Shown: positions 34,890 to 53,467 of the stretch, in pieces
Numbering within the stretch: the first letter of the stretch is position 1
Layout of the letters: each line of letters begins with the position of its first letter
Source: Aristaeella hokkaidonensis
Lineage (GTDB): Bacteria; Bacillota; Clostridia; Christensenellales; Aristaeellaceae
Assembly (NCBI RefSeq): GCF_018128945.1
Contig: NZ_CP068393.1
Location: 3,100,001 to 3,164,000 of the forward strand
Direction: 5' to 3'
Length of the DNA: 64,000 nucleotides
Notes under the pieces: generated by a model
Seen by the model: only the letters and a program-made list of their open reading frames with translations
The model's database searches: none
What the model was told of the DNA's origin: nothing
Position numbers and translations under genes: made by a program

Positions 34890-35534
34890 TTAATTCTGCA
34901 TGCGGTATTCTCCATTATTCATTTCGTACTCTTCCCCAATACTGTTTCCTCTTTGCTTCAGTTCCCACATCACCCCTTCAATCTTATCGATCAGGGCGTC
35001 AATCCGGGCGCGGCCGTCGTTGATTTTCTGCTGCACCATCAGATCGCTGAAGAAGTTGTCGCAGAAAATATCCAGCATGGTGACCAGCGATCCGGTATCG
35101 ACCTGCAGGCCTTCGCCGTCCACGTCCCGCAGCTCCTTCGCGAAGCGGCGCAGGTCCCGGTTGGCCTGGTCCATCCATTCATTGGCCTGGTCGATTTTGC
35201 TGTGCTTGATCATGCTGGAGATCACGCCGCCGCCGAGCATGTCATAGATGCCCCAGTTCCGGGCAGAGTTCAGTTGGCTCTTGGCTTCCCGCAGGCTGTC
35301 CAGGGCCTGTTCACCGGCGCGGATGGCTTCGTTGATCTCCCGGATTTCCGCGTTGGGAACTGTGTTCCGGGGCTCTGCATAAGACAGGGTCCGGGTCGGG
35401 TATACGGGTTCCCGGGGCTCAAACCGGGCCTCTTCCTCATAATCATCGTCATAGTCTTCATCGCGGTTGCTGCGGTTTTTCCGGTACAGGGCGAGACCAA
35501 TACCAATACCAATAATGACGGCTAAGAATTCCAT
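34890..35534 (-). CDS. Membrane-anchored helical protein, unknown family (214 aa)
   Basis: ATG 35534 follows AAGGAGG. A single short N-terminal transmembrane helix (2-17, EFLAVIIGIGIGLALY) is followed by an acidic linker (RDEDYDDDYEEEARFEP) and a helical domain (about 60-205). That domain contains EINEAIRAGEQALDSLREAKSQLNSARNWGIYDMLGGGVISSMIKHSKIDQANEWMD in two long helices with a Gly-rich hinge. The last residues read into AT-rich repeat-like sequence, so the extreme C-terminus may be recent. Function not known. Confidence 0.7.
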   Translation of the reverse strand: MEFLAVIIGIGIGLALYRKNRSNRDEDYDDDYEEEARFEPREPVYPTRTLSYAEPRNTVPNAEIREINEAIRAGEQALDSLREAKSQLNSARNWGIYDMLGGGVISSMIKHSKIDQANEWMDQANRDLRRFAKELRDVDGEGLQVDTGSLVTMLDIFCDNFFSDLMVQQKINDGRARIDALIDKIEGVMWELKQRGNSIGEEYEMNNGEYRMQN

Positions 35535-35807
35535 TTCCGTATCCTCCTTGGGGAGAAGTGCCTCCCGATGCTCATATCCTAACTGACAGCCGAAGCAGAA
35601 AACAGATCGAATCAGGATAAATAAACCCGTCTATTTTTCCATGTGCCGGCCAGGAAGAGGGGCGCATGCAGGCTGGATGTTTTGATATTCAATGCCTGTG
35701 GGGCGCAAACATGTATTTACAATTTGCGATCTTTTTTATATAAATAAACAATATATTTTTTTCATCTGAAGGGGGATGAGTTACGGAGAATAAAGCAATA
35801 CACTCCC

Positions 35808-35835
35808 TTGACAGTCCCGTTTTCGGGAATATAAT
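35808..35835 (+). promoter_or_regulatory. Consensus promoter with palindromic spacer
   Basis: TTGACA (35808-35813), 16 bp, TATAAT (35830-35835): both hexamers perfect. The spacer itself is an inverted repeat TCCCG-tttt-CGGGA (35815-35828), so a repressor could sit between the hexamers. It starts the leader of the antiporter gene. Confidence 0.85.
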
Positions 35836-35853
35836 AAGTGCCGAACAAAGGAA

Positions 35854-35974
35854 CAGCGATCCAACCAATTACCGTCCCTGTGCTCGAGGAGACATCACCA
35901 ACGGATGGGCGGCAGATCGCTGTATCAGACAGAACGGCATCACGGCTCATCATGGATACATGGTGGGCCTTTTC
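35854..35974 (+). promoter_or_regulatory. Riboswitch-like attenuator leader of the antiporter
   Basis: An 8-bp helix CAGCGATC (35854-35861) with GATCGCTG (35915-35922) closes a 53-nt domain in which CC..CCC (872-878) can pair with GGG.GG (907-912). Further on, GGCTCATCATG (35944-35954), loop GATA and CATGGTGGGCC (35959-35969), then TTTTC, form an intrinsic terminator before the start codon. Within the first domain GATGGGC (35904-35910) can pair over 7 bp with GCTCATC (35945-35951) of the terminator arm: a built-in antiterminator. This is the plan of a transcriptional riboswitch. I do not recognise the aptamer class. Confidence 0.6.
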
Positions 35975-35999
35975 ATATGAAAGGATGCGATCAAAACTT

Positions 36000-37316
36000 A
36001 TGCAAACGCTTCTGCTGATTGCTGTTGCCCTGTTCTCCGGACTATTGATGACCCGTCTGTTTGATAAGTTTCACCTGCCGGATGTCACCGCCTACCTGGT
36101 GACCGGCGTGCTGATCGGCCCCTGCATCCTGGGACGGCTGGGGGTTCCGTGCCTGGGTTTCAACACCTTTGAGCAGGTGGATTCCCTTTCGATGATTTCG
36201 GATGTGGCCCTGGGCTTCATTGCTTTTGCCATCGGCCATGAATTCCGCCTTTCCGCCCTGAAGCAAACGGGTAAGCAGGCAACGGTGATCGGTATCATCC
36301 AGGCCTGCTTTGCCACCCTGTGCGTGGACGCGGCACTGATTGCCCTGCACTTTATCATGCCGGACCTGCTGCCGATGCCCGTGGCTGTAACCCTGGGCGC
36401 GATCGCGGCGGCTACCGCCCCGGCTGCCACCCTGATGGTGGTCCGTCAGTACAAGGCCAAGGGGCCGGTGACGGACGTGCTGCTGCCGGTGGTTGCCCTG
36501 GATGATGCGGTAGGCCTGGTGATCTTCGCCATTTCCTTCGGCATTGCCCAGTCCCTGAAAAACGGGGATACCGATATCGCCGCCCTGATCCTGGAACCGC
36601 TCATGGAGGTGTTCCTGTCCCTCGCCTTCGGCGGACTGGTGGGCCTGGTGCTGACCTGGCTGGAGCGGTTCTTCCACTCCCACCGGAACCGGAACGCCCT
36701 CATTGTCGGCAGCGTCATCCTGACGGTGGCCGTCAGCCAGCTGAAGATCCCGGCGGGTCCTTTCACCTTCGGATTCTCTTCCCTGCTGGTCTGCATGATG
36801 CTGGGCACCATTTTCTGCAACTTCTGCCCCCTCAGCGAGGATCTGATGCTGCAGGCGGACCGCTGGTCCGGCCCGGCCGTGACCCTGTTCTTTGTGCTCA
36901 GCGGCGCGGCGCTGAAGTTTGAGGTCTTCGGCGATCCCGCCGTGCTCCTGGTCGGCGTGGTCTATATCGTTGCCCGGTCGCTGGGCAAATATCTGGGCGC
37001 CGGCCTGTCCTCCTCCATGGTTCACAGTCCCGAACCGGTCCGGAAATACCTGGGCATCACTCTGCTGCCCCAGGCCGGCGTGGCCCTGGGCATGTGCGCC
37101 ACAGCCTACCGGGTGCTGGGCGGCACGGAGGGTACGCTGGTCCGGAATATTGTGCTTTTCTCCGTGCTGGTCTATGAACTGGTGGGCCCGAGTCTGACCA
37201 AGTGGGCCCTGACCAAAGCCGGGGATATCCGGAAAATGCCGGACGAGGTTGCTTCCCGCCGGGAAAAGGAACTGCAGGAGGCCGCCAAACCGGTGCCTGC
37301 CGCCTTCCGGAAATAG
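36000..37316 (+). CDS. Cation:proton antiporter (CPA2 type)
   Basis: A 438-aa integral membrane protein with about 12 helices. MQTLLLIAVALFSGLLMTRLFDKFHLPDVTAYLVTGVLIGP is the usual opening of the Na+/H+ exchanger fold; VVALDDAVGLVIF near residues 165-177 holds the paired aspartates used for cation/proton exchange. ATG 36000 is preferred (AAGGA 14 bases upstream); ATG 35985 abuts that site. Longer in-frame starts would run through the terminator and leader. The KefB-type nucleotide-binding C-terminus is absent. It probably exports Na+, Li+ or K+; the leader suggests control by an ion or small molecule. Confidence 0.88.
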   Translation: MQTLLLIAVALFSGLLMTRLFDKFHLPDVTAYLVTGVLIGPCILGRLGVPCLGFNTFEQVDSLSMISDVALGFIAFAIGHEFRLSALKQTGKQATVIGIIQACFATLCVDAALIALHFIMPDLLPMPVAVTLGAIAAATAPAATLMVVRQYKAKGPVTDVLLPVVALDDAVGLVIFAISFGIAQSLKNGDTDIAALILEPLMEVFLSLAFGGLVGLVLTWLERFFHSHRNRNALIVGSVILTVAVSQLKIPAGPFTFGFSSLLVCMMLGTIFCNFCPLSEDLMLQADRWSGPAVTLFFVLSGAALKFEVFGDPAVLLVGVVYIVARSLGKYLGAGLSSSMVHSPEPVRKYLGITLLPQAGVALGMCATAYRVLGGTEGTLVRNIVLFSVLVYELVGPSLTKWALTKAGDIRKMPDEVASRREKELQEAAKPVPAAFRK

Positions 37317-53355: not shown

Positions 53356-53378
53356 TGCGGAGACGTTTAAGGGTTAAA

Positions 53379-53467
53379 TGAAATATGAGCCTGAAGGCTC
53401 ATGTGAAATACGGCTTCGCCGTGTGAAATGTGGCTTCGCCACATGAAATATTCGACTTCGTCGAATG
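53379..53467 (+). repeat. Array of four mini-hairpins with constant TGAAAT spacers
   Basis: TGAAAT occurs at 53379, 53404, 53424 and 53444. Each is followed by a different but perfect hairpin: ATGAGCC-tgaa-GGCTCAT, ACGGC-ttc-GCCGT, TGTGGC-ttc-GCCACA (its first T belongs to the spacer) and ATTCGAC-ttc-GTCGAAT. Period is 20-25 bp. Stems change on both sides in each unit while spacer and loop stay constant. It sits just after the aconitase stop codon. Confidence 0.85.

Follow-up and report, generated by a model that had tools for sequence, protein, structure and literature searches.

Genomic context and layout of the leader

The analysed window is a stretch of 64,000 nucleotides from Aristaeella hokkaidonensis (NZ_CP068393.1, positions 3,100,001 to 3,164,000 of the forward strand). 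It contains a gene for a monovalent cation:proton antiporter on the plus strand at 36000–37313 (PF00999, E 1.2e-28), whose scores against the CPA2 and K+/H+ antiporter models were all below the model cut-offs. In front of this gene lies a plus-strand sigma-A promoter, TTGACA-16-TATAAT (35808–35835), which matches the consensus at 12 of 12 positions. This promoter would be constitutive, with transcription predicted to start near 35842–35843. The leader comprises a 5' element (35843–35885), whose strong hairpin is confined to the minus strand, a middle part on the plus strand (35886–35943) in which 13 of 58 columns vary, an intrinsic terminator (35944–35973, plus strand), and a U-tract with the Shine-Dalgarno site, GAAAGGATG (35970–35987, plus strand). 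The terminator stem pairs 35944–35954 with 35959–35969 over 11 bp and is followed by TTTTC. The original prediction, made from this DNA alone, had placed both a consensus promoter and such a terminator before the start codon, and both were borne out.

The promoter spacer (35815–35828) holds an inverted repeat, TCCCG-TTTT-CGGGA, at the position of the right CIRCE arm of related loci, and this repeat is kept only partly across the other copies of the leader. Upstream, a divergent gene of 214 aa (34890–35534) gave no Pfam or NCBIfam match. Elsewhere in the window, Rfam matches to Gut-1 (53376–53454), DUF3800-I (618–734), DUF3800-XI (177–224) and skipping-rope RNA (1465–1544) were observed.

Antiporter copies carrying the leader

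Homologues of the antiporter were identified in 41 of 45 genomes of the genus. Among 50 upstream regions of such homologues, 10 contained the leader at 88–100% identity, and these belong to the closest group only, with 95–100% protein identity. Three other upstream regions gave matches of 12–19 nt only, and the paralogue of about 84% identity and the other homologues compared had different upstream DNA without the leader. In one of the 10 carriers (G026), the gene has a broken frame and falls into two parts of 95% and 92% identity. Insertions and deletions of 1, 4 and 5 nt among the 10 copies leave no common reading frame, so the leader is considered non-coding; a longer N-terminus or a leader peptide was rejected, as the open frame of the window is not common to all copies.

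In five of eight loci compared, the DNA shared with the window begins at 35801–35804, immediately ahead of the -35 box, and extends 7 to 119 bases beyond 37313, so that the gene and its leader stand in different places. In a genome bin with 5% contamination (G043), the antiporter and its leader are present twice, on separate contigs (L006 and L031). These two copies, together with the five loci in which nothing ahead of the promoter is shared, suggest mobility.

Homology of both leader ends to hsp20 loci

Searches with the leader DNA returned two separate matches in related genomes, covering query positions 1–48 and 104–152. In G020 these pieces lie 574 bp apart, start to start, with an hsp20 gene between them. 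The first piece corresponds to the hsp20 5' UTR behind a CIRCE-bearing promoter, and the same piece also heads a DUF308 gene that is followed by a UbiB-like kinase. Over 38–91 nt, the 5' part of the leader was 73–86% identical to leaders in 19 of the 20 loci compared, which head either hsp20 or the DUF308 gene; the remaining locus (L092) gave a 20-nt match only. At the other end, the segment 35941–36024, which spans the terminator, the ribosome-binding site and the first codons, matched 3 of 16 stretches (74% over 88 nt, E 1.8e-8). The matching segment lies directly after a whole hsp20 in L126 and L130 and after a partly masked hsp20 in L131, and a decayed antiporter start is found behind the terminator in all three. 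The middle part of the leader matches hsp20 UTRs weakly, and, judging from pairwise alignments, the junction between the hsp20 5' and 3' UTRs probably falls somewhere within it.

The aligned hsp20 promoters carry TTAGCACTC-N9-CAGTGCTAA over the -35 box and have the same spacing as the window promoter. The CIRCE operator (TTAGCACTC-N9-GAGTGCTAA), present at the hsp20 genes of relatives, was not found in the window leader with up to 3 mismatches. Elsewhere, the genome of the window encodes HrcA and has three perfect CIRCE sites. The single hsp20 match in this genome shows 54–58% identity and lacks a CIRCE promoter. An antiporter with the leader and an hsp20 locus of this kind occur within one genome in G006 (L002 and L130) and in G001 (L005 and L077, the latter 99.6% identical to L076 over the relevant region).

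We favour, with a probability of roughly 0.7, the reading that the leader is a gene-deletion fusion of the two ends of a lost hsp20, kept under selection. In the ancestor, the promoter and 5' UTR of hsp20, the gene itself, its terminator and the antiporter would have formed one row. No hsp20 was found at the 50 antiporter loci, in flanks that reached at most 1.5 kb at the majority of the first 30 loci and roughly 0.5 kb at the remaining 20, and by eye no hsp20 and antiporter stood side by side among the matches listed for 150 genomes; since no intact row was found, we infer the ancestral row from remnants. Deletion of hsp20 would then have placed the promoter, the 5' element and the terminator directly before the antiporter, with decay of the HrcA operator, and relatives would have undergone the reverse loss, in which the antiporter decayed and hsp20 was retained. 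Judged from sequence, the support consists of the homology of both ends to hsp20, the antiporter remnants, the absence of CIRCE, the slow evolution of the leader and the preserved terminator. On this reading the leader is a variant, made by deletion, of known things, namely a terminator-bearing leader and a heat-shock leader. This would represent a route to a terminator-bearing leader in which an intervening gene disappears but leaves its two ends behind as a control region that then comes under selection.

Selective constraint on the leader

The nine intact copies were compared in 36 non-independent pairs, with the broken copy excluded. Divergence was 0.063 per site in the leader (367/5836) versus 0.174 at four-fold sites of the antiporter (1696/9775); the leader evolves 2.8 times slower than these sites. 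Among very close copies, two of the 36 pairs (L001–L003 and L002–L003) have a leader slightly more different than the four-fold sites. By segment, divergence was 0.015 in the terminator with its U-tract, 0.054 in the 5' element, 0.074 in the middle and 0.075 in the region of the ribosome-binding site. A deletion origin and the loss of the CIRCE operator would also fit a decaying relic without function. However, leader divergence is about one third of that at four-fold sites and only 2 of the 30 terminator columns (35944–35973) vary in the 10 copies, and we regard a relic as most improbable.

Attenuation and the terminator

The leader had originally been interpreted as a possible riboswitch or ion sensor, with a domain closed by an 8-bp helix and a 7-bp segment able to pair with the left arm of the terminator. 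That a conserved leader under constraint precedes the antiporter was upheld, while the role as ion sensor found no support: no Rfam family was matched, no covariation was seen, and both ends are homologous to hsp20. The scan against Rfam 15, with the leader on both strands, matched no riboswitch or RNA thermometer class (ROSE, FourU) and gave no gathering-level match in the leader; the only two weak matches (E 0.73 and 2.2) fell upstream of it.

The 8-bp helix can indeed form, with its 5' strand at 35854–35861 (plus strand) pairing with 35915–35922, and it competes with the 5' element. It is weak compared with shuffled sequences, as helices of at least 8 bp occurred in 141 of 1000 shuffles and of at least 9 bp in 36 of 1000 (the longest observed helix has 9 bp with G.U allowed). 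Over the 10 copies, the helix shows three unpaired cells and no change on both sides of a pair. An outer helix of 6 bp begins 3 nt past the -10 box and is therefore probably not fully transcribed. Folding of the leader gave a z-score of -3.4 with the terminator and -1.3 without it, the latter being reached by 20 of 200 shuffles.

By sequence, the leader has the intrinsic terminator ahead of the start codon that an attenuator calls for. In a genuine attenuator, whether riboswitch-like or responding to ions or pH by some other means, the segment 35904–35910 would break the terminator by pairing with 35945–35951 and thereby free the antiporter. This 7-bp pairing exists and all 10 copies retain it; in two of them one pair has changed from G.U to G-C. 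The constraint on the leader would also be expected of such a device. Against it, the pairing is within the range of chance (126 of 1000 shuffles), six of its seven pairs never vary, and the leader alignment of 10 copies, proposed as a check, revealed no change on both sides of a pair in either this pairing or the 8-bp helix. Together with the unmatched Rfam scan, the three unpaired cells of the 8-bp helix and the restriction of the leader to one group of close relatives, these results make a true attenuator quite unlikely. At the sequence level there is no positive evidence that a signal alters read-through, and no ligand or ion is implied. A promoter, a folded domain and a terminator before a transporter gene thus need not imply a riboswitch.

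The terminator itself stands out from chance, as a local hairpin as long or longer was found in 1 of 1000 shuffles. Across 12 distinct terminator rows from antiporter and hsp20 copies, 95.5% of the cells pair, which was reached in 0 of 500 shuffles, and slid registers gave 37–65%. Relative to the hsp20 copies, changes on both sides were observed at two pairs and five cells, numbers matched in 226 of 500 shuffles for pairs and 0 of 500 for cells, and six cells were unpaired; within the antiporter copies alone, no terminator pair changed on both sides. The U-tract has four U at the antiporter terminator and four or five in the hsp20 copies. Pairing of its UUUUC with GAAAG is possible, without any variation, in each of the 10 copies, and the U-tract may mask the Shine-Dalgarno GAAAGG of the antiporter. 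Under the deletion reading, the inherited terminator would halt part of the transcription, and read-through would provide a low level of antiporter mRNA.

Distribution of the 5' element

By homology, the 5' element represents the first 43 transcribed nucleotides of CIRCE-controlled hsp20 genes and of DUF308 genes. A covariance model built from 19 of 28 distinct hairpins matched hsp20 leaders and also the window, at 60 bits, the window being among the model-building sequences. A pattern scan of GTDB genomes identified 45 matches in 44 stretches, with hsp20 behind 29 of them, the DUF308 gene behind five and the antiporter behind six (tblastn). Of the remaining matches, one is cut before the antiporter gene (L166), three are cut by contig ends (L152, L169 and L178) and one lies in unrelated DNA (L173). 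Viral contigs gave no match to the pattern.

With the covariance model (E 0.01), matches were found in 10 of 390 other genomes of the class, and nine of these, from two other families (f31 and f47), are positioned immediately ahead of hsp20, the exception being L195. Among 300 genomes of the family, 25 contained a match, the genome of the window included; the five weakest new loci lie before hsp20 in three cases, before the DUF308 gene in one and before neither in the last (L216). The element matched no Rfam family, and five hsp20 loci gave no relevant Rfam match, RNA thermometers (ROSE, FourU) included. In the literature searched, we found no RNA thermometer of hsp20/CIRCE genes, no pH-responsive element in an antiporter leader and no hsp20 antisense RNA. 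As far as searched, a structured element at the start of hsp20 mRNAs therefore appears undescribed in Rfam and in the literature, and it gives heat-shock genes a candidate for a new structured family that can be put to the test.

Several further features of the hsp20 loci were observed. Codons 2–15 of hsp20 (L076:3782–3823; 24 loci) have identical four-fold sites in 318 of 419 cases (76%), compared with 41% for codons 16–60 and 47% from codon 61 on, and the gene start may carry extra constraint. In some rumen hsp20 leaders (L143, L170, L184 and others), ACCUCC of the element can pair with the Shine-Dalgarno GGAGGU as an alternative to the hairpin. This anti-Shine-Dalgarno pairing, seen in predicted folds of some hsp20 leaders only, does not occur in the window, where the site is GAAAGG. 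A second leader type was observed in the hsp20 leaders L102–L117, with the same start, GAAC...GUUC around GGGG...CCCC and then GUAACAACAU; judged by eye, its pairs are mostly Watson-Crick.

Strand asymmetry of the 5' element

The alignment of the sense strand folded without structure, and the two strands were therefore tested separately. The window element folds at -18.0 kcal/mol on the minus strand (z -4.0) and at -4.1 kcal/mol on the plus strand (z -0.1). Five other loci gave antisense z-scores of -5.9, -2.7, -3.3, -5.0 and -4.0, and the sense z-scores of all six loci range from -0.7 to +0.9. The alignment fold reaches -16.6 kcal/mol on the minus strand and 0 on the plus strand. The fold of the 5' element on one strand is thus well supported. 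The strong hairpin is confined to the antisense strand because A.C mismatches of the sense strand are G.U pairs on the antisense strand: among 285 sense cells, 198 are Watson-Crick, 6 G.U, 76 A.C and 5 other. Standard and A.C pairs together account for 280 of 285 cells (98%) in the true register versus 53–63% in slid registers, and standard pairs alone for 71.6%, a value reached in 0 of 500 shuffles. The invariance of the 5' strand is partly due to the search pattern, which required it; distant matches bound by the covariance model rather than the pattern have two to four A.C each. Changes on both sides were seen at two pairs and five cells (as high in 177 and 7 of 500 shuffles, respectively), and the covariation score of the element was exceeded by three slid registers. 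From such a fold one would expect either an RNA made from the antisense strand or a hairpin that depends on protons.

In the first case, the 5' element would be the footprint of a minus-strand hairpin RNA whose end lies where the sense mRNA begins and which base-pairs with the 5' end of that mRNA. In IS10, RNA-OUT acts on RNA-IN as such an antisense partner. The 5' element likewise has a strand-asymmetric hairpin where the sense RNA begins, although no antisense promoter was found at it. The strong antisense fold beside the flat sense fold in six loci, the 76 A.C cells (G.U on the minus strand) against 6 G.U on the plus strand, and a stem left intact by changes in loop length all agree with an antisense RNA. 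However, the scan of 23 loci for an antisense promoter was negative, with a best score of 9/12 in 2 of the 23, which 24 and 47 of 200 mononucleotide shuffles matched. In addition, when more of the minus strand of the window leader is folded, a different structure wins whose z of -0.8 does not set it apart from shuffled sequences, and the fixed position at the mRNA +1 favours a function on the sense strand. We consider this antisense RNA rather unlikely.

In the second case, the sense mRNA would form a hairpin with A+.C wobble pairs, either at low pH or melting with heat. The excess of standard and A.C pairs over slid registers, the changes on both sides at two pairs, the start at the predicted +1 and the genes behind the element (hsp20, the DUF308 gene and a proton antiporter) are consistent with such a hairpin. 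An excess of A.C over G.U is, however, what typically appears when the wrong strand is read, the predicted sense energy is shuffle-like and the plus-strand alignment does not fold, so that an A+.C hairpin seems very unlikely. A combined reading, in which a one-strand element of stress genes of rumen and gut Clostridia acts as an antisense control RNA or a proton-sensing A+.C mRNA hairpin and was captured by the antiporter of the window through the hsp20 deletion, is offered tentatively, as somewhat unlikely.

Comparison with known systems

Relative to the CIRCE/HrcA-controlled hsp20 (sHsp) leaders of Clostridia, the window leader has the same promoter spacing, the 5' element at +1 and the kind of terminator that follows the gene, but it lacks the hsp20 frame and the CIRCE operator and drives an antiporter. 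The Na+ (DUF1646) and Li+ (nhaA-I/II) riboswitches also combine a leader and a terminator before a cation:proton antiporter; unlike them, the window leader matches no Rfam model.

A likeness to the tLST/LHR islands was also observed, since relatives keep hsp20 beside the DUF308 gene and an antiporter lies in the window. The tLST contains sHsp20, HdeD and KefB (PMC8290217). The island set used for comparison was ClpK, FtsH, sHsp20, YfdX, HdeD and KefB, and the genes set against it here were hsp20, the DUF308 gene, the UbiB-like gene and the antiporter. In contrast to the tLST, a UbiB-like kinase is present and the hosts are clostridial, and the comparison concerns likeness of gene kinds and not island homology. 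The DUF308 gene is weakly HdeD-like by NCBIfam, and L076 contains hsp20, DUF308 and ABC1/UbiB-like genes by Pfam. These gene kinds recall stress-tolerance islands. A DUF308 gene, a UbiB-like kinase and hsp20 occur together in the genus of the window (L126, L127, L132 and L134), and the DUF308–UbiB pair with the same leader was also identified in another genus, g10 (L133 and L213).
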